From: Bordetella genomosp. 12
Lineage (GTDB): Bacteria; Pseudomonadota; Gammaproteobacteria; Burkholderiales; Burkholderiaceae_B
DNA length: 64,000 bases
Direction of reading: 5' to 3'
NCBI RefSeq assembly: GCF_002261355.1
Contig: NZ_NEVU01000003.1
Span: forward strand, 1,426,001-1,490,000
The notes beneath the pieces are model-generated. The model had not been told where the DNA came from. It did no database searches and saw only the letters and a list, made by a program, of their open reading frames with translations. Made by a program: the position numbers and the translations under genes. This document shows positions 3,884 through 60,370 of this stretch, piece by piece (the first letter of the stretch is position 1; every line of letters starts with the position of its first letter).

Positions 3884-4708
3884 TTACGTCAGACGCCGGG
3901 TATCGGCCAGATCGCGGGCGCCCGTGCTTTCGACCCGCCAGGCCTGGCGTGCCTGGCCCAGCGCCAGCGCGCGCAACTGCTCGACGATGTGATATTGCGT
4001 CGGCATGTCTTCCCAGCGGGTGGGCAGAAAGCGCAGATGCGCCCGCGCAGTCTGTACCCGCGTCACCGTCAGTTGCCCGCCCTTGGGGGTCAAGGTGCAG
4101 TAGCAGGCGTCCGGCTCGGCGGCCGGGCCGGTGCCGGCGATGTACTTGAAATTCAGAATCCCGTCACCGGGCGCGGCCGGGCCGGCGTCCAGGGCCGCAT
4201 CGCTCAGCGTCTCGAAGTCATACTCCACGAAGCGATGCCCGAGCCAATCCAACGACGCGGTCCACGGCCCCTCATCCTGGCGGGCGGGATCGGCAATCGC
4301 GGCGTAGATCTTGTTGTAGCCCAGCTCCTCACGCCCGCTGATGATGGCATCCGGCATGTTCTCCCACAGCACCGTCAGGAAGTGCCCGCGCGCGGCGTCC
4401 TCCTTGCCGCGATAACGCACCGGCACTTTCACGCCGAACGTGTTGTAGCCCCGGCCGGCCAGCCAGGCCAGATTGCGCCATTGCTGCAACTCGATGCGAA
4501 CCACGGGCTCGCCGTCCAGTTCGAAGCCGGGCGGCAGCCAGGCGGCGATGCGGGCGGCATCGGCATCGAAATCCATCGCCCACAGCGTGCGGTCGGGCTG
4601 ATGCGACCAATCGAAGGGCTGGCCGTCCGGTCCTTGCCGCGGACCCGGGGTGGGTCCGAAATGGGCCGGCATGCGATAGAGCTGTTGCGCGTCGAAAACA
4701 AATGACAT
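3884..4708 (-). CDS. Acetoacetate decarboxylase-like protein
   Basis: A 274-residue protein with the acetoacetate decarboxylase (ADC) fold. The segment NMPDAIISGREELGYNK (about residues 117-133) corresponds to the ADC active-site region, with K133 in the place of the Schiff-base lysine. ADC superfamily members include decarboxylases and also aldolase-dehydratases or enzymes of unknown activity, so acetoacetate need not be the substrate. It stands alone on the minus strand, downstream of the Bug-receptor gene and about 80 bp away from it. The length is a little above classical ADC (about 245 residues) because of an N-terminal extension. Confidence 0.78.
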   Translation of the reverse strand: MSFVFDAQQLYRMPAHFGPTPGPRQGPDGQPFDWSHQPDRTLWAMDFDADAARIAAWLPPGFELDGEPVVRIELQQWRNLAWLAGRGYNTFGVKVPVRYRGKEDAARGHFLTVLWENMPDAIISGREELGYNKIYAAIADPARQDEGPWTASLDWLGHRFVEYDFETLSDAALDAGPAAPGDGILNFKYIAGTGPAAEPDACYCTLTPKGGQLTVTRVQTARAHLRFLPTRWEDMPTQYHIVEQLRALALGQARQAWRVESTGARDLADTRRLT

Positions 4709-46398: not shown

Positions 46399-46483
46399 GC
46401 CCGGGTGGTGAAATTGGTAGACGCAGGGGACTCAAAATCCCCCGCCGCAAGGCGTGCCGGTTCGATTCCGGCCCCGGGCACCA
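46399..46483 (+). tRNA. tRNA-Leu (CAA), intact, island insertion site
   Basis: The acceptor GCCCGGG pairs with CCCGGGC. The anticodon arm is GGGGA-CTCAAAA-TCCCC with anticodon CAA. A long variable arm (CGCCGCAAGGCG region), T arm GCCGG-TTCGATT-CCGGC and an encoded CCA complete it. Length 85 nt. An integrase gene begins 141 bp downstream, so its 3' end is the presumed attachment site. Confidence 0.95.
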
Positions 46484-46624
46484 CTTAAAAATCCCTAGTA
46501 TTTACAAGCATCTAGCGCGATTTTTAGTCTTTCCCTAGCACTAGGGGATTTTCCAAGTTTGTGAGCCAGGTACAGTTTCGGTACAGTGGCGAAGCACCGA
46601 GCGTACTTTTCGGAGCTTTAGCAC

Positions 46625-47692
46625 ATGGCTACCCTCGTCAAGACCCCCTCAGGCACCTGGAAAGCCGTCATTCGCAAGACAGGCTGGCCAACTTCGTCCA
46701 AAACATTTCGTACCAAACGCGACGCTGAAGATTGGGCACGGCGGACAGAAGACGAAATGGTGCGCGGCGTCTACATTCAGCGCGCTCCAGGCGAGCGCAT
46801 GACGCTAGAGTCGGCCCTGACCCGCTACCTGCGCGAAGTCACCCCCACCAAACGCGAATCCACCCGCGCCTCAGAGCTCAAGAAAGCCCAGCCGCTACTC
46901 AAACACCTTGGCAAATACTCGCTCGCTGCCTTGAGCGCCGATATCGTCGCCCAATACCGCGACATGCGGCTGGCAGGCGATCCCGACGAAAACGGCAAGC
47001 CAGTGCCGCGCAGCAACAACACCGTGCGCCTGGAGCTGGCACTACTCAGCCACCTATTCACCATCGCCATCAAAGAATGGGGCTTGGGTCTGCCCTTCAA
47101 TCCCGTCTCTCAGATTCGCCGCCCGGCTCCCGGCGCAGGTCGCAATCGCAGGCTGACACTCGCAGAAAATAAACGGCTGTTAGCCGCCGTCGATGCCTAC
47201 TCCAACCCCATGTTCAGTTGGATCGTGCGCATCGCCCTGGAAACCGGCATGCGGCTCTCCGAGATCGGTGGCCTGCGCCTCGGTCAAGTAGACCTGCAAA
47301 AACGCGTCGTGCGCCTGGATATCACCAAGAACTCATCGCCACGCACCGTACCACTCACCAAAGCGGCGACGGCGGCATTTCAGGCGGCGATGGATAACCC
47401 CACTCGACCACCAGAAACCGATCTGGTGTTCTTTGGTGAACCGGGGCGTGATGGTGTACGACGGCCGTATCTATTCGACAAGGCCTGGACGGATGCGAAG
47501 AAAGAGGCGGGACTGACGGACTTCCGGTTTCATGATCTGAGACATGAAGCAGTTAGCCGGTTGGTGGAGGCAGGGTTATCCGATCAGGAAGTGGCGGCGA
47601 TCAGCGGGCATAAGAGTATGCAGATGCTGAAGCGGTATACGCATTTAAGGGCTGAGGATTTGGTGGGGAAGCTGGATAAGTTGGATTGCTGA
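46625..47692 (+). CDS. int: Tyrosine-type site-specific integrase
   Basis: 355 residues. An N-terminal DNA-binding region (about 1-60, with KTFRTKRDAEDWARRTEDEM) and a SAM-like core-binding domain (60-160) precede the catalytic domain. That domain has R in LETGMRLSEIGGL, HDLRHEAVSRL as the H-x-x-R box, H in ISGHKS and the nucleophile Y in LKRYTHLR. It would recombine the tRNA-Leu 3' end with the element's attP. It reads away from the tRNA, the usual layout of integrative elements. GC falls sharply after it. Confidence 0.95.
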   Translation: MATLVKTPSGTWKAVIRKTGWPTSSKTFRTKRDAEDWARRTEDEMVRGVYIQRAPGERMTLESALTRYLREVTPTKRESTRASELKKAQPLLKHLGKYSLAALSADIVAQYRDMRLAGDPDENGKPVPRSNNTVRLELALLSHLFTIAIKEWGLGLPFNPVSQIRRPAPGAGRNRRLTLAENKRLLAAVDAYSNPMFSWIVRIALETGMRLSEIGGLRLGQVDLQKRVVRLDITKNSSPRTVPLTKAATAAFQAAMDNPTRPPETDLVFFGEPGRDGVRRPYLFDKAWTDAKKEAGLTDFRFHDLRHEAVSRLVEAGLSDQEVAAISGHKSMQMLKRYTHLRAEDLVGKLDKLDC

Positions 47693-47749
47693 GCGTCGGC
47701 TATCGGCCAGAAGCGGCCGTTCGTGAGAGTCGGCTTTCGGTTACTAAAA

Positions 47750-49060
47750 ATGGGAAATAAAGACGTGTCTGAGAATCGGCGCCCTTACCATTACGCAGAG
47801 CTTGACCTGCTTCATGCGGCGGAGCTCCTTCATCAAGTCAAGGCTGACTCTGCACGTCTCGACCTTGTGCACGAACTTCAGCGTCATCTCATTCGCTGCA
47901 TCGTACGCACCGAATTGCGAGTGCTGCGCCTGCGGCGTAGGCGAAAAAGCCTTCCGCAGAAAGACGACCAACGCGCCACAAAGGAGCAGGCGCAAGCGCG
48001 CAAGGCCGGATTGAGGGCGCTACGCGAGAGGGAAGAACAATTGCTGCATCTCTTGTTTCTCTGGCGATGTTTTGGTGACGGCATCGCTTTCATCTACCAG
48101 TCGAAGTACAGCCTCAAACACACCTATTATGACGCGACCTATAACGTGAAGGCTCCGGCAGGTTTCATCACCGAGCATGGTCGGCTCAAACGAGGTTTTG
48201 CTCGTGAGTATCGCATCCTGTGTTCCGGCATCAAACACAACGTTCCAGTTGTCCTATGTGACCTTACGAATGTGATCCGCTACGGTGATGTGTGTGCTCT
48301 TGGCGCAGAGGATCCTTGCCTTATCGAAGTAAAGACTTCGCGCAATCGAAACGCTCGAACGGATAGGCAAGCCAAGCTGCTTCAGGAGTTGACAAACTTC
48401 TATGTTAACGACGGCGCCTCTAATTTTCGAGGAATTACAAACGTCCTTCGTGTCGCGACGATGGCTGAAGAGGTGGATCACCGGAGTGTTTTGAATGCGT
48501 GTATTGAGGCCGGAATGCGGACAGGTTGGAACACGGCAACACCAGAGCCAGGTCTGACCTACTTAGTGTGCTCAGTGATGGACGAAGCGAGGTTTAAACA
48601 GCACGGGACCACACCGTCGACCGTGGTTTACTTTCTCTCGGCCCAACCCGACTACCTGCCGAGCTATCCGTTCACGCTGTCGATGGAACCCGCGAATAGC
48701 GTCGCATTCATGCAGCAGGCTTTCGGACTGGTGGTGTTTATAGATATGAAGAACGTTAAGGCCTCTTTCGCTAGGTGTGGCGTCGAAGCGACCGTAATCA
48801 TGGACGGTACCCATTCTGTCCAAATTACCAAGACTCCGCACAACCTCATCATGGGCGTTCAGCGTATTAGCGAACAAATGCTTGGCCGCGTGGCAACCGA
48901 GTTCCTTTCTATTGAATCGTTCGCGGATGAGATGTCCCAGATGCTCGATGTTGAGCTTGGACCTCCAATGACCCTCGACGAGGCGTTGGCCCTACCTGGT
49001 GTGGCCACAGAGGTGCCCCGTGAATGGAATGAGGTAGTGGACTTCTGGGAGCGGAAATGA
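47750..49060 (+). CDS. Predicted PD-(D/E)xK nuclease-like protein, possible defence gene
   Basis: 436 residues with no family I recognise end to end. Residues 178-195 read YGDVCALGAEDPCLIEVK, where D180, E193 and K195 fit the PD-(D/E)xK nuclease core, with a Q207 helix after it. The N-terminal 100 residues are basic and helical. The C-terminal half has no recognised motif. It follows the integrase by 57 bp and precedes an HNH protein gene by 229 bp, in AT-richer DNA than the flanks. Nuclease genes next to integrases are often anti-phage cargo; that role is inference. The start is uncertain, with a GTG at 47,723 possible. Confidence 0.6.
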   Translation: MGNKDVSENRRPYHYAELDLLHAAELLHQVKADSARLDLVHELQRHLIRCIVRTELRVLRLRRRRKSLPQKDDQRATKEQAQARKAGLRALREREEQLLHLLFLWRCFGDGIAFIYQSKYSLKHTYYDATYNVKAPAGFITEHGRLKRGFAREYRILCSGIKHNVPVVLCDLTNVIRYGDVCALGAEDPCLIEVKTSRNRNARTDRQAKLLQELTNFYVNDGASNFRGITNVLRVATMAEEVDHRSVLNACIEAGMRTGWNTATPEPGLTYLVCSVMDEARFKQHGTTPSTVVYFLSAQPDYLPSYPFTLSMEPANSVAFMQQAFGLVVFIDMKNVKASFARCGVEATVIMDGTHSVQITKTPHNLIMGVQRISEQMLGRVATEFLSIESFADEMSQMLDVELGPPMTLDEALALPGVATEVPREWNEVVDFWERK

Positions 49061-49289
49061 GCAGCCTTCTCCCTTGCGCCCACTGCGGTGGGAAGGCGTT
49101 CTACAGTTAATGACCGTTTTGCGGCTCCCAGTTTGCGAGCGTGGAAGTCTCCATGGGGTCGAAAGCGGGCGTCCGGCCTAGTCTGCTATCTGCCAAGAGC
49201 AACTTCAGCTTTCCAATTCATTAAGGAACTTTGCACTTACTATTAGCCAACCTGCCAATGCACGACAAGAACAAACGGGAGTCTAATGC

Positions 49290-49994
49290 ATGAACTTCTA
49301 CGATTGGATGCTTTACAAAGGGCTATCAAAGTCCTCTGCACGCAGTTACGACGGGGCGCTCCGTGGCGTACTGTCAGAGTGGGCGATGAATAGCGACCTG
49401 ATTTCAGGCCCTCTGATCGCGTTGAGTAGTTCTTCGGCCTTTGATGCCCTTTCCCCAAGAATCCAGGAGCTACCTATCTTCAAAGAGCGAAACATGCGTG
49501 GGCACCACATGTATAGCGCTACATTGTCGCAATTCGCTGCATACCTAGCGAGCAACGGCAGCGATGACATGCAAGCCGACCTTGAACAGATCATCGGCGA
49601 TCCGAGCATGACCATGACTGAAAAGACAGCACTGATCAAGTCAAGGGTCGGTCAGGGAACGTTTCGGGACAAGGTGCTACGCCACTGGACCTGCTGTGCT
49701 GTGACGGGTTTCAGCGACACATCCCTCCTCATTGCATCTCACATCAAGCCGTGGAAGAAATCAACGAATAGTGAAAGACTGGACGAATGGAACGGATTGC
49801 TTTTTTCGCCAAATTTGGACAAAGCGTTTGACAAAGGATTTATCACATTTGAGACAAGTGGCTCAATTCGCATCTCACCATTTTTCAACGAGGCTGCGAA
49901 ACTTGGCATCATGCCTTCGATGAAGATCGCCCTGAAACCTCAGCACGAGATGTACATGGCTCACCATCGCGTGGAGGAGTTCAAGGGCAATTAG
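49290..49994 (+). CDS. HNH-family endonuclease-like protein
   Basis: 234 residues. The C-terminal half is an HNH_2-type nuclease domain with C-AVTG (136-140), ASHIKPW (149-155) including H151, then N168 in WNGLLFSPNLDKAFDKG. The third position is Asp rather than His, as in many restriction-like HNH_2 proteins. The N-terminal 110 residues resemble no domain I can name; the opening FYDWMLYKGLSKSSARSY recalls the core-binding part of tyrosine recombinases. It may pair with the preceding nuclease-like gene as a restriction or defence unit. A GGGAG site lies upstream. Confidence 0.75.
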   Translation: MNFYDWMLYKGLSKSSARSYDGALRGVLSEWAMNSDLISGPLIALSSSSAFDALSPRIQELPIFKERNMRGHHMYSATLSQFAAYLASNGSDDMQADLEQIIGDPSMTMTEKTALIKSRVGQGTFRDKVLRHWTCCAVTGFSDTSLLIASHIKPWKKSTNSERLDEWNGLLFSPNLDKAFDKGFITFETSGSIRISPFFNEAAKLGIMPSMKIALKPQHEMYMAHHRVEEFKGN

Positions 49995-50127
49995 TAACCT
50001 GCAATCAGGAGGCTGGGCATCTAAGTCAATCAAGCATAAATCCGCTACTCACTCCTTACGTGTTGACTGACCTCCGTAAGTCGAAATTAGTCTTTCACCA
50101 ATGAGCATATGGGTAGTATAAAAATAC

Positions 50128-50443
50128 TGGTGCCCGAGGCCAGAATCGAACTGGCACGCCTTGCGGCGGGGGATTTTCTTACCGCTTCGGCTTTCGTCGC
50201 CGTCGCTTGGCAAGCAACGTTCGCGGTCTGGAGCACGCCTTCACCTTAGCCTTTCGACCTTAGGTGCCCGCCGTCTGCTCTCTACACCTTCCTGGCGGTC
50301 AATCACCAGGCTTGGCTCGGTATTAGCTCGGACACGTAAATCCAGGGCCTTCGCCGAGTTTGACGGGCTTCACTTCATGGGTTTCCCCTTGAAGGCTCAA
50401 ATTGGTCTGAGTCCCCTGCGTCTACCAATTTCACCACTCGGGC
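50128..50443 (-). tRNA. tRNA-Leu (CAA) interrupted by a group I intron
   Basis: On the minus strand exon 1 (50,443-50,409) runs from GCCCGAG to GGGGACTC, and exon 2 (50,177-50,128) from AAAATCCCC to CTCGGGCACCA. Joined, they give an 85-nt tRNA-Leu with anticodon CAA, interrupted between positions 34 and 35. Compared with the intact gene at 46,399 it has paired changes in the acceptor stem (GCCCGAG/CTCGGGC) and the T stem (GCCAG/CTGGC). These keep pairing, so the spliced RNA should be functional. It lies inside the island in the opposite orientation to the bounding tRNA. Confidence 0.93.
50178..50408 (-). ncRNA. Group I intron (IC3-like) in tRNA-Leu anticodon loop
   Basis: The intron is 231 nt and ends in G. 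Its internal guide TTTGAGCC pairs with the 5' exon end (CTC with GAG). P2 is CTTCA/TGAAG capped by GGG-GAAA-CCC. A GCCCGTC segment can form P3 with the later GACGG..GGGC. GAGCCAAGCC is the P/Q core. GTAGAGAGCAGACGG and GTGCTCCAGACC form P7 (GAGCA/TGCTC), the guanosine site. P6 is CCTGG/CCAGG and a P9-type stem follows. No open reading frame for a homing endonuclease fits inside. The splice site follows C, giving C-G instead of the usual U-G pair. Confidence 0.88.
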
Positions 50444-50976
50444 ACACGACCGAAATGTAGCATCAAAAGCAGGCTGAAAATGCGCTGATTCGCGCCAAAT
50501 TTCATTAAAATCAATGCCTTCCGTAATCAAGCGCAATCTAGCGTAAGGCTGAACGAAACACCTGCCACGGCGTCGCCTCGATCACGCAGAATATGGCTTT
50601 TGGACGCGGCCCCTAAAGTACAAAACACGGCCACAGATAAGGCCAAAATCGAAGCAAACCGGGCCTAAGAATACTCAGCCCACCGCTGACAGCCCACGAA
50701 TTTCGCCAAGAACCCTCAGGGATTTGTACATTAAGGGCCATCCCGTCTTGTTGATTCATGCCCCACTCACGGCCTCAGCGATATCCATGTTTTTCATCTG
50801 TTGCGGCAGCAACCAACAGCCTCGCAGAGCAAGATTCCGTTGAGCCTCGGGCGAATAAGGGGGGGTGTTGTCGCGATAGGGTGCGCAGCAGCGTATGGCT
50901 ACAACACATATCTTGCCATTTGCAGCAAGGCAACAAGATGCAAAGGAATGCGATTTAGGAAAACCGAATTTCTAAA
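50444..50976. other. Non-coding stretch between tRNA-Leu and iterons
   Basis: No convincing gene. Short frames here lack ribosome sites and coding character. The first 60 bases must hold the promoter of the minus-strand tRNA-Leu. The last 30 bases become AT-rich before the iteron array. Confidence 0.6.
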
Positions 50977-51092
50977 TTGCCTTGTTGTGCATTAAGTTGC
51001 CTTCAGTTGCCCTGAATTGCCTTTACGGAGGGCCGCAGCGCATGAAATTGCCTTGAGTTGCCCTGAGTTGCGTTCATTCGCATTGAATTGCC
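50977..51092. repeat. 10-bp iteron array (TTGCC repeats), candidate replication origin
   Basis: TTGCC-type repeats of consensus TTGCCYTSAR start at 50,977, 50,997, 51,007, 51,017, 51,048, 51,058, 51,068 (TTGCG) and 51,088, with a degenerate unit near 51,078. Within each of two clusters the spacing is 10 bp or a multiple of it, so units face one side of the helix. A 31-bp spacer with GGAGGGCCGC separates the clusters. The array ends 16 bp from the stop of the TraK-like gene. Such iterons usually bind a Rep or partition protein. Confidence 0.7.
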
Positions 51093-51107
51093 TTCATGCC
51101 CCGAGCG

Positions 51108-51446
51108 TCAGATAAGGTCGTCGTCCAGGCGGTTTGAACGATGCCCAGACACCGGCATTGCATCCTCCCTGCCCACGCAGGATGCAGCCGTTCGGTATGC
51201 ATGCCCCGCCAATGCCCCTAAACGGGCCTCAGAGCCCTTCAAACGCTTTGGTTGACCCCTGACATACCGTGCGACGTAACGCGTGAACTGGCTGTAGCTC
51301 ATGACGCCCAGAGCGTCTCTGTGCGCATCGTAGATGGTCATCAGGGTGTGACCCGCGTCGAACAGGCTGCGTATCGCCCCTAGACGAGCCAGAAAGGCCA
51401 CGCGAGCGGCCCCGCGATGTTGCTTACCCATCTTCGCGCCGATCAT
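51108..51446 (-). CDS. TraK-like small basic protein of an integrative element
   Basis: 112 residues, strongly basic. The core GAARVAFLARLGAIRSLFDAG and YSQFTRYVARYV resemble the small TraK-type DNA-binding proteins of mobilisable plasmids and integrative elements, which bind the transfer origin. Its start overlaps the stop of the replication-like gene by four bases, so it is the last gene of a three-gene operon and ends next to the iterons. The family assignment is from pattern memory and moderate. Confidence 0.6.
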   Translation of the reverse strand: MIGAKMGKQHRGAARVAFLARLGAIRSLFDAGHTLMTIYDAHRDALGVMSYSQFTRYVARYVRGQPKRLKGSEARLGALAGHAYRTAASCVGREDAMPVSGHRSNRLDDDLI

Positions 51447-52057
51447 CCGCGTGAGGCCATGGATCGTTTTGTTTGGTGCTGCCGATCTACCGCAACACGA
51501 ATGCGCGCCTTGAAGGCACTCATGCTCTCTCCGGGTTGAGCGTTGAGCTTTAGCAACCGTCCTGTCGCGATGATGCCCTCATCGCTTTCCCACCACCCTG
51601 ACGGCAAGGGTTCGCCTATTTCCTTTGAAAAAGGAAATACCTCCCCCACCCCCACCCCCTCCCCCGGTCTGGGTATTGATTTATAAGCACTTTTTGCAAT
51701 TGTGGATAACTTCCGGCTTTTTATGCGGTCTAAAGATGTCCACAGGGCACCTCTCGCGCTGGGGGTACGGAAGTTCAACCAGCGGGGCCAAGACAGCACA
51801 AAAACCTCCCCGGTTTCGCTATCGAGCGCCACGAGCTTGCGGCGCTCAAACTCGCGCAAAGCCTCTTCCAGCACCGCAATCGGTAACGACAGGTCGGCCG
51901 CCGCACGAGGCCGTGGCAGGAAATAGCAACCGCAGGCGCTGGCATCCGGCGAAAAAAACAGATACGCCCCAATGAGCTTTTGATCCGGCAGCAAATTGCT
52001 GATCGCAGGCCACGCCAACAGGTTGCACGGCACAGCCCTTGTGTCCACCGCGCTCAT
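51443..52057 (-). CDS. Replication-like winged-helix protein of an integrative element
   Basis: 204 residues. The N-terminal part (about 15-95) looks like a winged helix: a helical segment LPIAVLEEALREFERRKLV and a wing VALDSETGEVFVLSWPRW, as in phage and plasmid replication initiators. A basic linker around SLDRIKSRKL and the glycine-rich PGEGVGVGEV follow, with a C-terminal helical region. That linker is encoded by an exceptional G5N repeat beside a perfect hairpin. It overlaps both neighbours by four bases. The replication role is inferred from layout and nearby iterons. Confidence 0.55.
   Translation of the reverse strand: MSAVDTRAVPCNLLAWPAISNLLPDQKLIGAYLFFSPDASACGCYFLPRPRAAADLSLPIAVLEEALREFERRKLVALDSETGEVFVLSWPRWLNFRTPSARGALWTSLDRIKSRKLSTIAKSAYKSIPRPGEGVGVGEVFPFSKEIGEPLPSGWWESDEGIIATGRLLKLNAQPGESMSAFKARIRVAVDRQHQTKRSMASRG
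51618..51665 (-). other. Perfect hairpin plus G-quadruplex motif inside the replication-like gene
   Basis: 51,618-51,638 is a 9-bp perfect hairpin (ATTTCCTTT, loop GAA, AAAGGAAAT). From 51,643 to 51,665 the plus strand has four runs of five C separated by single bases, so the coding strand reads G5N repeated four times. This is both a textbook G-quadruplex motif and a slippage-prone tract. Confidence 0.8.
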
Positions 52058-52377
52058 ACAGCCGCTCCAGGAGCCTCCAGGCCTGTCCGCATGGTCTTAC
52101 CTGCCTGACGCGGCGTTAACGCGCCAGAAGCCGCCTGAGGGGCTTCTGCGTGGCACAAGTAGGTAGCAATATCCGTTGTTCGGAAATACACCCGCCGCCC
52201 GATCTTCACGCGGGCCTCGCAGATTCTCAGCGCATAGGGCTGCGAAGTGCGTAACGCGACCCGCAAACCGTCAGCACTGCGGTGCAGCAGCTCGGCCAAC
52301 TGCTGCAAGCTAAGCAGCGGCCCGTACTTTTGATGCAGATTGCTTTCCAAGGCTTGCTGGCTGTGCGCATTGTTCAT
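52054..52377 (-). CDS. Helix-turn-helix DNA-binding protein (AlpA/excisionase-like)
   Basis: 107 residues from ATG 52,377, which has an AAGGA site. Residues 20-70 form a MerR/AlpA-like helix-turn-helix (LSLQQLAELLHRSADGLRVAL) followed by the wing KIGRRVYFRTTDIATYL, the usual end of excisionase-type domains. Such proteins control excision or the neighbouring replication genes of integrative elements. It is first in the three-gene operon and divergent from the gene at 52,497. Confidence 0.7.
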   Translation of the reverse strand: MNNAHSQQALESNLHQKYGPLLSLQQLAELLHRSADGLRVALRTSQPYALRICEARVKIGRRVYFRTTDIATYLCHAEAPQAASGALTPRQAGKTMRTGLEAPGAAV

Positions 52378-52496
52378 TCTGAATCCTTTCGGTGTCATTC
52401 GATAGGTATAGAAGTTACGCGTAAGCACTGCCCTTGAAAGACCTAAAATATGACAGTAAGGTTGACGAACATCGGTTGGCACCTACATCGAAAGAC

Positions 52497-53381
52497 ATGA
52501 CACCAATAGAGGCCAAAAAAATCATCGTGTGCGATGGCTGCCCAAGCACCGTCGCGGCAGCCGTGCGTCGTTTCGAACAAGCCTGCACGCCCTCATACAC
52601 CACAGCCTCACGCCGCTACTCAATCTGGAGCTTGCTGCGTGAGCAGATGGACGCCCCGGTCGCAGAGGCGCTGCAAGCAGCGAAGCTGCCCAACCTGCTG
52701 GGTCACTCATTCTCGCGCTGGCTAGAACTGGGCTGCGAACGCGGAGAAAGAGTGCGACTCGAAAGGCTCGGCAAAAACATACGAGCCTTGCAACGCGCCT
52801 TCAAATCTGAGTTTTATCCCGGCCTACATGCCTTACTGGATACGCTATGCGAAGTGGGATTTTTTGTCCTGTCGCGCACACCTCGAATATCCGTTGGCGT
52901 GTCCAAAGAGAAAGCCTCCCAAGCCGTCAACTATGGACGCCGCCAATCGTCTGAATATCCCTTTTGCGAGTTATGCTGGAAACAATCCATGCGTGCTGTT
53001 GCAGAAGAAAAAGCAAAGAAATTATCCGCAGGCACGCGTGTGCCGCTGGCCGAAATCATACGTTTTAGCAGCCGCTTTTGTGCCGACCATAACCCCTCCG
53101 ACCCCGCTTCACGCTATCGCGTAGACCATCGCTATCGGCAACGATTTCAAGATGAAGTAAAACGACAGTGGGGACTAGTGAGAGGCAAGCAAGCGCCGTG
53201 GACTCACACCCCCGATGAATGGGCAGTCCGCATGCAAGCGTACGGATTGGCGCGAGTACCCGACGAAACACGAGCCGATGAAATGCGCCGCATGGCCGCG
53301 CAAGGCACACCAAGAAAAGCCATCGCCGAACACTTCGGCGTCAGCCGCCAAGCCGTTCACAAGGCGCTCAAGCGCGTTTAA
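52497..53381 (+). CDS. Uncharacterised island protein with Cys-rich centre and C-terminal HTH
   Basis: 294 residues from ATG 52,497; a TTG at 52,434 is a longer option. The middle has YPFCELCWKQS and, about 40 residues later, RFCADHNP, a likely zinc site. The end (AAQGTPRKAIAEHFGVSRQAVHKALKR) is a clear helix-turn-helix like those of resolvases. I do not recognise the family. It is divergent from the AlpA-like operon and 24 bp before the HigA-like gene. It could regulate the element or be a recombination accessory factor. Confidence 0.7.
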   Translation: MTPIEAKKIIVCDGCPSTVAAAVRRFEQACTPSYTTASRRYSIWSLLREQMDAPVAEALQAAKLPNLLGHSFSRWLELGCERGERVRLERLGKNIRALQRAFKSEFYPGLHALLDTLCEVGFFVLSRTPRISVGVSKEKASQAVNYGRRQSSEYPFCELCWKQSMRAVAEEKAKKLSAGTRVPLAEIIRFSSRFCADHNPSDPASRYRVDHRYRQRFQDEVKRQWGLVRGKQAPWTHTPDEWAVRMQAYGLARVPDETRADEMRRMAAQGTPRKAIAEHFGVSRQAVHKALKRV

Positions 53382-53405
53382 ATCGGTGAGAAAGGAGAAA
53401 CCCAC

Positions 53406-53639
53406 ATGCCGCCCAAAGTACATCCTGGCGAGATTATCAAGAAGGACATCATGGAACCGTTGGGGCTGGATTTAGAGACGGCTGCGGGACTTTTTGGTGT
53501 ACAGCCAGAGGTGTTGGCTAGGGTTATCGCGGGGCAATGTGCTGTCACTCAGGAGCTTGCTGTCGGGCTTGCGAAGCAAGGGCATGGCACTGAGCGGATG
53601 TGGTTTGCGTTGCAGAAGGCAACTAGTGCACGGACTTAG
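53406..53639 (+). CDS. HigA-like antitoxin/XRE protein, orphan
   Basis: 77 residues opening MPPKVHPGEIIKKDIMEPLGL, nearly the consensus of the HigA addiction-module antitoxin family. The helix-turn-helix is unusual: LETAAGLFGVQPEVLARVIAG. The tail KATSART is short, since HigA usually runs to about 95-100 residues. No HigB toxin gene lies upstream or downstream. It follows the preceding gene by 24 bp with GAAAGGAG as ribosome site. It may be a solitary regulator or the remainder of a toxin-antitoxin pair. Confidence 0.75.
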   Translation: MPPKVHPGEIIKKDIMEPLGLDLETAAGLFGVQPEVLARVIAGQCAVTQELAVGLAKQGHGTERMWFALQKATSART

Positions 53640-53960
53640 AACCCAGAAAATCGCGAGTCCAACCTACTTCAGATACACGACAAAACACTGATTCACTTGC
53701 AGCTGCGAAAAATCATAGCAATGCGCTCAAGCCAGATGAAAAATTTCCGATTTCAAGTTATTTTTCAGCATTTTTCCGAGAAAAAAAACAATGGCCTATG
53801 CTAGATTTCACTGCCCAGGTGCCGTCGGAACCTAATGAGGCAAAGGAAGCATAAGAGCAACGCAAAGGCAAATTTAGAACAAACCCGGAAAGCACCAAGC
53901 ATACGCCTAGCACCTGCTTTACAAAGAAAATCCCCTTCGGTTTGAATGAATTCTTAGCCG
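53640..53960. other. AT-rich intergenic stretch
   Basis: No gene seen. The region is clearly AT-rich compared with the chromosome and carries poly-A runs (for example near 53,782). It separates the HigA-like gene from the convergent minus-strand membrane-protein genes. Confidence 0.6.
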
Positions 53961-54359
53961 CTAGAGCATTGAATTTTTGTATGCTAAAATCGCACTATCC
54001 TTACTGCTGGCATCAAGTGTTTTGACTACCCGGAAGTTAGATTTCTCAAGCTTCTTACGTCTCCAAGCGTTTCCGTATGCGCCAAAAACTATATGGATTG
54101 CTAGGCCAACAATCGCAACAACCCCTCCAATAACTGATATTGTTTCAGCATAGCTACCAGATGCATTTCTTTGCATTTGCTCAATAATAGACATAAGCAT
54201 CTGAAGAAACAGTTCAATTGGCAGAAGAATCACTCCAATAAGCCACAGCTGTGCAAAAAATGCCCATATTGAGCCAAAGAAAAAAGCTGGCCATGACCAG
54301 CCATTCTTTACGACCCGATAGGCTCCATTGCTTCCTTCGTATACGTTAAAAGATCTCAT
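53961..54359 (-). CDS. DUF2628-family membrane protein
   Basis: 132 residues. VKNGWSWPAFFFGSIWAFFAQLW (about 17-39) is the DUF2628 signature, followed by two more hydrophobic helices (LIGVILLPIELFLQML and VIGGVVAIVGLAIHIVFGAYG) and a basic RRKKLE tail. It is an inner-membrane protein of unknown role. It is AT-rich island DNA. Its ATG lies 22 bp after a GTTAG sequence that might belong to an attC-like site. Confidence 0.8.
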   Translation of the reverse strand: MRSFNVYEGSNGAYRVVKNGWSWPAFFFGSIWAFFAQLWLIGVILLPIELFLQMLMSIIEQMQRNASGSYAETISVIGGVVAIVGLAIHIVFGAYGNAWRRKKLEKSNFRVVKTLDASSKDSAILAYKNSML

Positions 54360-54615
54360 TTAGGTTTCTCTATTGTTGTGCTGCTAACGCCGTATATTTT
54401 TGATCTGTCCCAGCTTAGGCATCGAGAGCCCGGCTTGCGCGCCCGATAACGTATTGGTGTTAGAGCAACCGTATCAGCAGGGAGCGCATACCGGATCTCG
54501 CGCCCTGCGCTCGAACAGTGGCACGAGGATAAACTTCGCACCGATAAGACAAGGGCATCTGTATCTTGATTTGACGAAAAACTCCTTATGGAGTTGTTAG
54601 ACGACGTTTTCGTCG
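54360..54615. other. Intergenic region with hairpins and attC-like core sequences
   Basis: Two perfect hairpins lie at 54,580-54,595 (AACTCC-TTAT-GGAGTT) and 54,600-54,617 (GACGACG-TTTT-CGTCGTC), directly after the stop of the minus-strand gene at 54,616. On the minus strand GTCTAAC occurs near the start and CGTTAGCA near the end, which recalls integron attC cores, although the 221-bp distance is too long for one standard site. I treat the frame at 54,356-54,619 as non-coding. Confidence 0.4.
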
Positions 54616-54969
54616 TCAATGCCTCATCATGCGATTCATGTCATCAAGCACGCGTTTCGTTACATCTGAGTCACGCTCGACGGTAATAATGGTTCCGCCG
54701 CTTGTGTCTCGGATGAATACGACGAAATAAACGGAGGCATCTATTACGATTTTTGCGGATGCACTCTCATGATCAGCAGCGGTAGCTCCCTTAGAGAGGG
54801 CATACGATTTTGCTGCCTCATAGTAGAGGTCTGGGAAAGTTGAGTAGCCCACGCCAGATGAAACCATTCTTTTTACCCTTGATTCGACTGCCGTATCTCT
54901 CCGTGTCTTGGAAGATGCGAAAAAATACACAATGCCAGCAACGGCGAGGATGAGCAGAAAAACCCCCAT
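54616..54969 (-). CDS. Small single-span membrane protein, unknown
   Basis: 117 residues. MGVFLLILAVAGIVYFF is an N-terminal membrane anchor, followed by a basic KTRRD stop-transfer and a soluble domain of about 95 residues with no family I recognise. It follows the gene ending at 54,975 by 5 bp, so the two share a transcript. The DNA is AT-richer than the chromosome. A strong hairpin follows its stop. Confidence 0.65.
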   Translation of the reverse strand: MGVFLLILAVAGIVYFFASSKTRRDTAVESRVKRMVSSGVGYSTFPDLYYEAAKSYALSKGATAADHESASAKIVIDASVYFVVFIRDTSGGTIITVERDSDVTKRVLDDMNRMMRH

Positions 54970-54974
54970 GTTTA

Positions 54975-55301
54975 TCAGCGCCTCATGTATTGGCGAATAG
55001 CGGAGAACGCAACACGATCTTCGTTGCTGGACATGCGTGTGCCAGAAAGAGACTCAAAACCTTTGAACTTGAAAACCATGAAGGTTTTGATCTTTAGGCT
55101 GGTTATGTAGGATGAATCATCGGGGCAGGTAACCATGATTTTCATCATCCCGCCTTGGCAAACCACATCTATGGACTCATCAAACCAATGGCTTCGCCCA
55201 CAGGCGCATTGGAAGTTGTCCCGGTAGATGGACATGTTCATGGTGTTTGACGCAGCATTACCGAAATCATTCATAAAGCCGTCGAAGCTCAACATCTTCA
55301 T
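54975..55301 (-). CDS. Hypothetical protein with CxC and Cys-rich segment
   Basis: 108 residues from ATG 55,301, which has an excellent AAGGAGGA site. The extra residues of a longer frame upstream cross this ribosome site. The sequence FQCACGRSHWFDESIDVVC suggests a metal-binding or zinc-ribbon-like fold. No family recognised. It is the first gene of the small two- or three-gene minus-strand group with the membrane proteins. Confidence 0.65.
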   Translation of the reverse strand: MKMLSFDGFMNDFGNAASNTMNMSIYRDNFQCACGRSHWFDESIDVVCQGGMMKIMVTCPDDSSYITSLKIKTFMVFKFKGFESLSGTRMSSNEDRVAFSAIRQYMRR

Positions 55302-56193
55302 CTTTGCTGTTCCTCCTTCAGGTGTAGCGACCTTTCTCTTGATCGAAAGAATTGTAATGGTTTGTGAACAAATTGGGCGCATCACGTCATGTATTTGAAC
55401 TGGCCTCCGAATGTGATCAGCTGCCAGTGATAGCCGTAGCCCACCCTAACGTCCTATTTTTCATGGACGACATAGCCCATTGTGAGTCATCAGTGCGCTT
55501 CATCGAGCGCGCCATTCAAGGTGCTCCTGACTCGCCGTCATGAGTTCGACGCCTTGTTGTTTTGGCACAGCAGTACGTATCTAGGCGCGGTAGGCACTCG
55601 GCCAAGCCGGTCGTCATACCACTTCACGTATCTCCACGGCACGATGCCGTATTCGACGTGTGCCGAGTCAACCCCGTGTGCAGACTGACTTTGCGCGCAC
55701 CGGGGTACCACGCCCTTTTATCTCACCTTCCGCCGCTTCAAGCGCCACAGCACGCAAACTCGGTATGGAGGAGGCGCGGCCTGCGCAGTGGAGGCCGCGC
55801 AGAGGCAGACGCGAACGCACGCCCAATGACGCGCTGAAATGCGCCATGATGACTTGACGGTGGAAAGTGCCAATGCCATCGGCAACGCTCGCGGCCAGCG
55901 TGGCTTTTAAATGCTGCCGCCCTGCGCACTGGGTCGTCTCCCGTGTGAACGTAGCGCATAAACATCGCCACGGTCTTGTGCACAGTCCGCTACATCCCAA
56001 CTAACACCAGGCACCAGCTGCCCCATGCCCCCCCGCAATACCAAACCCACACCTCGGTACAGTACAAGTACACACATCAGTTCCCGACGATTTCGCTAAA
56101 ATACGATAAGCAACTGATTTAAAACTACTTTCCCCTACCCCAAGCTACGCTCGGTTTCGTACCACTTCCCTAGACCAGCACCTTAAATCGCCA
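55302..56193. other. Degraded region without intact genes
   Basis: About 890 bp hold only fragments. The minus strand at about 55,560-55,680 can be read as EYGIVPWRYVKWYDDRLGR and then stops. An integrase-like fragment lies at 55,915-55,983. Near 56,070 short GTACA-type repeats occur. It looks like a decayed junction between two insertions. Confidence 0.5.
55915..55983 (-). pseudogene. Fragment of a tyrosine recombinase C-terminus
   Basis: The minus strand reads HKTVAMFMRYVHTGDDPVRR, which resembles the end of phage-type integrases, where the Y in MRYVH is the nucleophile. The upstream catalytic boxes are absent, so it is a remnant. Only this short match supports the call. Confidence 0.4.
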
Positions 56194-56466
56194 ACTCAAA
56201 ATCACCCGCCGAAAGGCGGGAATGTTCGAGTTGGCCCCGGGCATCACTAGAATCCATAGTATTTAAGAGCAGCTAGCGCGATCTTTTATATTTTTCGTAG
56301 CACGTGGGATTTTTCCCAGTTTGCCAGCCGGATATCGCGGCAACGTGCCGCCCGTACGCTTGGGAGCCCTCTTATCTCGCTGAGCCCCTGGCAAATGCAT
56401 TACGCTTTAGCCCGCCCTGACCCGTTAGTGCGCGAAGCCAGACCCACCAAACGCGAATCCACGCCC
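56194..56466 (+). pseudogene. Relic of tRNA-Leu 3' end, attachment region and integrase 5' end
   Basis: The block ACTCAAAATC...CCCCGGGCATCACT (56,194-56,247) is a decayed copy of the tRNA-Leu anticodon-to-3' end at 46,430-46,484. The homology continues through the spacer (TAGTATTTA, CTAGCGCGAT, GGGATTTT) and then into integrase coding sequence (CCACCAAACGCGAATCCAC at 56,445). The order and direction are the same as at the left end. It is a broken older att-int module and gives the island's right limit. Confidence 0.8.
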
Positions 56467-59733: not shown

Positions 59734-60370
59734 GATAGGAAGGCGAGCGGGGCGCCGTGCGAAGCCCCTGGCAAAGCAAGCATGAAACTTGGCGTGTGGG
59801 TGGCCAACAGCAAGGGCGTCCCACTGCGGGCAGCCAAGCCAGGTCTGCGCGTCACGGCCGCCCCGGACCTCCGGTGAGCAGCCATGCCGGCGAGGACTCG
59901 ACACACGGCAAGCGGCGCGGTGTCGAGGTCGGAATGGGTGGCGACGATTGTACCGAAGTGACTCACAGCGACGGCTCCGCCCATCGCGTCGACCGCAGCA
60001 AAGCGCATGCCTTCTCACCCTTGCTCCTCGTCACGTGGCCTTGCCGCTTTTGGCCGCAGCCACGCCGACGGTCAGGGACCTGCGCCCGGGTCCCGGGGAC
60101 TCAAGCCGCGTCAAGACCCGGCTGCGCAACCGCACTAAGCCCCCAGCGACCCGCCCCACTGCATGCCTCCCCTTGAATGCAATCCCGCCGCCATGCCAGG
60201 CGCGGCGTCCTGACGCGCCCGCTGCATCCGCGGACGTGCCCCCGTCCCTGGCGCGGCAAGCGCCCTGCCCGCCTCGTCATGCTGCGAGCGCCTGTCGTCC
60301 AGACGCCCGGATAGCCCGCAAAGGCTAGGCATGGACAGGCAGCAGCATGCCCCGCCTCGTGCGGCTGGTG
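59734..60370. other. Long intergenic region between GntR and the crotonase operon
   Basis: No gene found in about 640 bp. Open frames here are high-GC artefacts full of Arg, Pro and Ser. The right end leads into the operator region. The length is unusual for this compact genome and may hold a deleted gene. Confidence 0.5.

Follow-up and report, generated by a model that had tools for sequence, protein, structure and literature searches.

The window analysed here, a stretch of 64,000 nucleotides from Bordetella genomosp. 12, contains on its minus strand a tRNA-Leu(CAA) gene with an interrupted anticodon, situated inside an integrative element that itself targets tRNA-Leu(CAA). This raises the question of what interrupts the gene, and why an element should carry an interrupted copy of its own target. 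The initial annotation had described two exons separated after C34 by a group I intron of 231 nt; the coordinates of exons and insert, and the ARAGORN call of the joined window exons as tRNA-Leu(caa), agree with this split. The gene has the following parts:

50128 to 50443, minus: whole interrupted gene; 85 nt with the exons joined
50409 to 50443, minus: tRNA-Leu(CAA) 5' exon, 35 nt, with C34 as its last base
50178 to 50408, minus: group I intron, 231 nt, P1-P9, G at the 3' end; RF00028 29.6 bits, plus covariation
50396 to 50398, minus: intron guide GAG; the G at 50398 is opposite C34 at 50409, giving C-G and not U.G
50276 to 50280, minus: 5' strand of P7, GAGCA; partner TGCTC at 50231-50235, 5 pairs, 100% paired in 43 sequences
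50128 to 50177, minus: tRNA-Leu(CAA) 3' exon, 50 nt including CCA

Compared with the uninterrupted tRNA-Leu(CAA) at 46399-46483, the exons differ at four positions (6, 61, 71 and 76), which by eye pair as 6-76 (acceptor stem) and 61-71 (T stem); in both pairs G-C has become A-T. When its RNA is folded on its own, the gene has a higher stability than its shuffled versions (z -3.07, 0 of 100 shuffles). No protein gene is evident within the 231-nt intron, and no consensus promoter was found upstream of the interrupted gene. As had been anticipated for an ordinary tRNA scan, default ARAGORN missed the gene at 50128-50443; the Rfam tRNA model missed it as well, both reporting the copy at 46399-46483.

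The same genome contains a second intron, 81% identical, in its own tRNA-Leu(UAA) (G000:C1:892965-893274, that is L005 7966-8275), with a U.G splice site. As no uninterrupted UAA gene in this genome matched the exact pattern, the intron-bearing gene may be its only tRNA-Leu(UAA). All 15 genomes of the genus match the whole query, mainly through the exons; full intron copies are present in seven, G006 gives a weak match to the intron core only, and chromosomal UAA introns come and go within this one genus (5/15 genomes with one). Searched with only the intron (E 1e-6), 79 of the 268 family genomes gave matches, at 87 places among the matches listed. The non-identical family copies readable by script number 78 (56 UAA, 22 CAA); the copies of G005, G011 and G013 are UAA and stand outside this count. 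A pattern scan of GTDB contigs yielded at least 120 stretches, all taken as loci, of which 22 passed the intron filter and 19 were kept after removal of L159, a non-tRNA, and of L054 and L142, both truncated by an end. CAA introns were also found in Burkholderiaceae, Comamonadaceae, Lysobacterales and other gamma- and betaproteobacterial MAGs.

With duplicates removed, the intron tree comprised 98 sequences, 60 UAA and 38 CAA. The family UAA introns form one clade of 56 (support 95/93). Clade A contains 21 CAA rows (support 83/94), and a further clade of 15 CAA rows (support 98/95) unites the window's kind with several gamma- and betaproteobacterial copies that have no element end. Two CAA introns, L091 and L088, the latter from an alphaproteobacterial MAG, lie outside both. 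L127, a MAG in the CAA set, bears the label Mycobacterium, probably through a binning error.

Further matches were seen in plasmids and phages. At E 0.001, 1282 plasmid records matched the window gene; two of them (L008, pCTX-M3, and L011, each at 3990-4295) contain, ~0.7 kb from aac(3)-IId, a tRNA-Leu(UAA) that is unannotated and has an intron of 211-213 nt, a proximity seen in these two. In an uncultured phage (LR756511, 595 kb; L012 1850-2160), a frame that by eye resembles an HNH nuclease enters the 3' half of such an intron and the tRNA-Leu 3' exon. Gordonia phage Daredevil (NC_048021.1 41896-41970; L260 3001-3075) has a 75-base match to the intron core (76%, E 1e-5) adjoining its integrase; the available text of PMC10865867 names this phage as being without its replacement tRNA.

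The intron structure was evaluated in an alignment of 43 of 47 sequences, the most distant ones (L088, L009, L010 and L008) having been excluded before alignment. The P2 helix with its GAAA loop, P3, the GAGCCAAGCC stretch, the P7 GAGCA/TGCTC pairing and the terminal G, all noted at the outset, are present, as are the core helices P3, P4, P6, P7 and P8. Since the P1-P9 structure was itself taken from the consensus fold of these 43 sequences and a drawing by eye, the share of paired cells, 96.0% of 2482 compared with a shuffled mean of 89.2%, is biased toward the structure. Changes on both sides were found for 24 of 58 pairs (shuffled mean 16.1), and the covariation of 0.259 compares with 0.136 in shuffles; none of 500 shuffles came as high in paired cells, double changes or covariation, and sliding the structure by 1-3 columns left 30-44% paired. 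The covariation resides mostly in P2, P5, P6a and P9, while P4, P6 and P7 hardly vary, so that the support for P7 and P6 is pairing, not covariation. In P1, the exon sequence CUC or CUU faces the guide GAG, and 99.5% of the P1 cells are paired. A U.G pair at the 5' splice site is near-universal in group I introns, with exceptions, and C-G has been described for a few. Here U.G was found in 60/60 UAA copies and C-G in 38/38 CAA copies, which therefore lack this group I hallmark. The terminal G is present in 98/98 copies, a count that is not independent because the extraction rule required it.

In the Rfam check proposed for 50128-50443, no RF00028 hit exceeded the threshold, which is one of the two refuting outcomes named at the outset. 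RF00028 matched the insert with E 1.7e-5 in 801 bases (2.3e-5 in the whole genome), and at 29.6 bits the match remained below the gathering score of 50, which is a curation threshold and not a biological feature. Among 19 relatives (67-kb search, E 0.01) the model found five, the best at 37.5 bits and none above the gathering score. It serves this intron group poorly, and the proposed test should not rest on it. The tRNA calls behaved more uniformly: with joined exons, ARAGORN called all 98 genes tRNA-Leu with the expected anticodon; in their interrupted form it found 0/98 by default and rightly named 96/98 with its intron option. tRNAscan-SE, in the words of its authors in the available text of PMC8450103, was not designed to detect group I introns.

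Together, the sub-threshold RF00028 match and the covariation in 43 aligned relatives uphold the group I identity, and at the sequence level 50128-50443 is confirmed as a tRNA-Leu(CAA) gene on the minus strand, interrupted between C34 and A35 by a group I intron. The intron probably splices itself out, which would restore a normal anticodon loop. A chance resemblance to group I introns is ruled out by the homologues and the covariation, and the many homologous introns likewise rule out a lone curiosity. An assembly artefact is unlikely, as the same arrangement recurs in many genomes.

The gene had also been placed on a mobile island, and the ends and the integrase of an integrative element were indeed found around it. 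This element, here called type B, has the following features:

46431 to 56246: integrative element, type B, ~9.8 kb, both ends identified
46399 to 46483, plus: intact tRNA-Leu(CAA) at the element's left end, core CTCAAAA at 46431-46437
46625 to 47692, plus: type B tyrosine integrase, 355 aa, Phage_integrase E 3.3e-34
47723 to 49060, plus: 445-aa protein without a Pfam match, in the element
49290 to 49994, plus: HNH_2 endonuclease-like protein, in the element, E 2.1e-12
50818 to 50918, minus: traJ-II RNA of an IncP-type transfer region, 59.0 bits, gathering score 40
51108 to 51446, minus: DUF5338 protein, in the element
56195 to 56246, plus: right end, CTCAAAA and a decayed tRNA 3' half, 78% identical

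The integrase adjoins the intact tRNA, and the intron-bearing gene lies inside the element in the opposite orientation. This order of intact tRNA, integrase and inverted intron-bearing tRNA was found in all seven loci closely examined, the window included; the integrases of the six others are 86-97% identical at the amino acid level (that of G090 is cut to 185 aa), and the introns of the seven loci show 81-91% identity. G101 fits the order by its coordinates. In G185 the order is absent: a different contig bears the intact gene, and an integrase of this kind was not found. The 197 bp upstream of the right end share 74% identity with the corresponding far end in G001, whose element is related but lacks the intron-bearing gene. 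Relatives of the type B integrase occur in 44 of 268 family genomes, only eight of which contain the intron-bearing gene; hence, this cargo is optional. All nine type B genomes keep an intact tRNA-Leu(CAA). In tRNA-dependent integration the host tRNA is not rebuilt, a feature that the window element fails to show, 46399-46483 being intact, and the window copy is redundant because the genome keeps this intact gene. As to other features nearby, no traJ gene follows the traJ-II RNA (50818-50918, minus), the next feature being the intron-bearing tRNA, and a tRNA-Val(gac) reported by ARAGORN at 60064-60145 (minus) is unsupported by Rfam and probably false.

A second kind of element, type A, is found in Bordetella ansorpii (G002, NZ_FKIF01000006), G008 and others, where the host tRNA-Leu(CAA) is broken. 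This same-genus genome also bears on the betaproteobacterial host named by the initial annotation, which is indicated by kinship only. At the type A left end, the host 5' half is joined to AAAAATAGG or a similar end, AAAA(A/G)(T/G)AGG, and a complete intron-bearing tRNA-Leu(CAA) follows 191-201 nt further inside (257 nt in L114). The displaced 3' half lies on the same strand and contig, at a distance of 66.8 kb in G002, 28.4 kb in G008, 73.4 kb in G088, 25.5 kb in G098, 48.1 kb in G204 and 77.5 kb in G205. A reading of the left end as a tRNA with a 226-bp insertion is ruled out by displacements of up to 77 kb. The 7-nt anticodon loop CTCAAAA is the core common to both ends; the host tRNA halves stay apart and are not rebuilt, and the intron splits the same core as CTC|AAAA. 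Some left ends follow other sequence (G176, G186, G230, a second copy in G002, and L127), and in G204 the left end abuts what by eye resembles the right end of a B-like element, not a tRNA 5' half. A candidate 13.8-kb type A element in G197 has a type B right end and was omitted from the type A lengths. Just inside the right end, seven genomes encode a tyrosine integrase that has an arm-binding domain and measures 450 aa in G002; these proteins are 67-100% identical, and the match between type A and type B integrases is 24%. Transfer genes were examined in G008 among the seven, and its VirB8, CagX and TrbI identify a conjugative element. The G008 element also encodes a Gabija pair (L165 5461-8954; GajA E 5.7e-301, GajB E 1e-274), with PIN and HEPN proteins near it. 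In L116, a Lysobacterales MAG, the broken host half differs in sequence from the carried tRNA, so the carried gene is foreign. The junctions of L268, L272 and L289 follow GGGGGACTC in non-tRNA sequence and are perhaps a secondary site or another element type. Viral contigs searched by pattern gave two matches, both uninterrupted tRNA genes.

The intron is consistently present at type A ends. A left-end pattern that ignores the intron gave 13 matches in 268 family genomes, a single one among 399 order genomes and none among 369 class genomes, the sets overlapping slightly. Inside 11 of these 14 matches there is an intron-bearing CAA gene, and inside none an uninterrupted one. As for the other three, L267 is cut by the contig end, L272 continues into other sequence after ~130 nt, and L266, from a 0.8-Mb genome, was rejected as an apparent chance match. 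Type A elements thus carry the tRNA of their target at 11/11 informative ends, which are not 11 independent trials since the elements share descent. Conversely, a type A end lies no more than 330 nt away from 16 of the 21 clade A genes; L093, L118, L121, L122 and L177 lack one at that distance.

To judge by sequence patterns, the carried gene often has no intact counterpart in its host. Among the 12 family genomes with a clade A intron, the pattern found an intact tRNA-Leu(CAA) in two, G176 and G186, and none in the other ten; 16 of 17 genomes reached via CAA-intron loci gave no match to a looser pattern, the two matches in G226 being displaced halves. As a control, this pattern was run on 120 order genomes at least 95% complete; it matched 103, including a few chance matches, which puts its miss rate at up to a seventh. 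The Fisher p of ~1e-12 (G226 matches counted as none) serves as a guide only: the genome sets are related, and the 17 consist mostly of MAGs for which no completeness is given. No intact tRNA-Leu(CAA) was found by these patterns in 26 distinct genomes with an intron-bearing gene, which looks like the only tRNA-Leu(CAA) of these genomes; this lends indirect support to the idea that an integrant may need the carried tRNA to survive. CAA introns also occur in MAG contigs without a recognised element end nearby (L057, L058, L060, L091, L124, L149, L150 and L152); in these gamma- and betaproteobacterial loci the only tRNA-Leu(CAA) found is intron-bearing, and here too the intron might be a protection against integration.

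Binding by tyrosine integrases involves two arms on either side of a short overlap; in anticodon-loop sites the stem supplies the arms and the 7-nt loop the overlap. The elements described here attach at the CTCAAAA anticodon loop of tRNA-Leu(CAA). Type A integration splits the host gene at the loop, with the intron-bearing gene just inside the left end as the likely substitute; type B integration restores the host gene and leaves the intron-bearing gene as an optional extra. An element carrying its own target tRNA would thereby bring a target for its own integrase. The intron would prevent this by splitting the 7-nt overlap 3/4 and placing the anticodon-stem arms ~230 bp apart; as it cuts the core and separates the arms, these integrases should be unable to use the carried gene for attachment, and splicing would give a normal anticodon loop in the RNA.

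Our preferred reading, to which we assign a probability of about 0.7, is that a spliced intron-bearing gene rides on elements targeting the anticodon loop, replaces the broken gene in the case of type A, and itself escapes as a target. It starts from the anatomy of the gene, the covariation, the element context and the finding, by pattern, of no other tRNA-Leu(CAA) in most type A hosts. The further proposal that the intron is a shield against site-specific recombination, and thereby has a selected function for a bacterial group I intron, is tentative, and we would put it at a little under even odds. We infer the loss of attachment-site function, and also that this loss is the reason why the intron is kept. 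A shield fits type A well, and G204 agrees with it: a type A element sits at a displaced site there, and the intron-bearing copy 4.5 kb away is untouched. For type B it would explain why an extra copy is safe, not why it is carried; our guess is that the copy insures its host in case a type A element breaks the host gene. The redundant window copy and the cargo in only 8 of the 44 type B integrase genomes speak against the preferred reading, as do the sub-threshold RF00028 score, the missing consensus promoter and the common descent of the 11 type A cases. The element-free CAA introns and the 5 of 21 clade A genes without a type A end within 330 nt mean that the intron is not bound to elements.

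The element-free CAA introns would also suit a passenger, that is, elements that captured an already interrupted tRNA-Leu(CAA) with an intron that is harmless, splices and spreads without any role in integration. Chromosomal tRNA-Leu(UAA) genes across the family have introns at the same position, CAA introns occur in genes not recognisably on elements, and their falling largely into two clades means that few captures would be needed. Against a passenger, the intron is lost in 0/11 informative type A ends, while chromosomal UAA introns come and go within the genus (5/15 genomes), and the gene is interrupted precisely within the core at which both element types attach. As type A shares descent, neither retention nor position is decisive, and we regard a passenger as a real possibility that falls somewhat short of an even chance.

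That the window gene is a decayed relic, a non-functional leftover of tandem insertions with splicing lost, appears improbable. An intact tRNA-Leu(CAA) lies 4 kb away, the right end of the element is decayed and no consensus promoter was found, all in favour of a leftover; however, the P3 and P7 core helices and the splice ends are intact, the exon differences are compensatory, and the same order is kept in 7/7 loci with introns 81-91% identical. We consider it still less probable, to the point of being very unlikely, that the gene is a spare making up for tRNA-Leu(CAA) lost to toxins or defence nucleases, with an intron that delays exposure of the anticodon loop. The G008 element with its PIN and HEPN proteins and Gabija pair would suit such a role; why an element should carry precisely the tRNA with the attachment core as its loop is left unexplained.

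Known group I introns in bacterial tRNAs include those of tRNA-Leu(UAA) in cyanobacteria, tRNA-Ile(CAU) in Azoarcus and tRNA-Arg(CCU) in Agrobacterium; tRNA-fMet introns have cyanobacterial hosts, and tRNA-Ile(CAU) introns have hosts including Burkholderia and Acidovorax. Small bacterial group I introns are usually regarded as neutral or selfish. Cases in tRNA-fMet and Ile2 appear in the available text of PMC8450103, and one in tRNA-Arg in that of PMC4596401. The present intron resembles these in being short, without a protein gene, in the anticodon loop, and in its core pairs and terminal G, and it shares position 34/35 with the tRNA-Leu(UAA) intron; unlike them, it has the anticodon CAA and a C-G 5' splice site and is carried on elements that attach to the same gene. 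In the literature searched, with subscription papers largely outside its scope and sources available in part, we found no published tRNA-Leu(CAA) group I intron and no link of tRNA introns to element attachment. The initial annotation named no tRNA-Leu(CAA) case in this group. The intron is not unique, 38 CAA introns having been collected.

Replacement of a broken host tRNA by a phage-carried one is known, tRNA-Leu(CAA) included and without introns; in the tRNA-dependent lysogeny of actinobacteriophages, phage Gaia has tRNA-Leu-CAA and an 8-bp core (available text of PMC10865867, in which the word "intron" appears in a reference title only). As far as that text describes the system, type A resembles it in having a short core inside a host tRNA that is left unrepaired, together with a carried tRNA of the same isotype; it differs in being a conjugative element, in Proteobacteria, whose carried tRNA has an intron in the core. 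The window element in turn resembles integrative elements that rebuild the tRNA 3' half, with the integrase beside the intact tRNA and a displaced 3' half at the far end, and differs from them by also carrying a second, intron-bearing copy of its own target. What is new is therefore the element context of the intron-bearing gene, as tRNA introns and carried replacement tRNAs were already known. The interpretation of the initial annotation is supported as a whole, to which we add that the island targets the same tRNA and that sister elements use the intron-bearing gene to replace the broken one.

The case extends tRNA-dependent integration from phages to conjugative elements, and the 38 CAA introns provide a natural series with C-G at the 5' splice site. 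In 26 genomes, moreover, the gene that looks like the sole tRNA-Leu(CAA) escapes default tRNA annotation. If the intron does act as a shield, there would be a testable reason for its retention: the attachment site would be hidden in the DNA, and the intron gone in the RNA.
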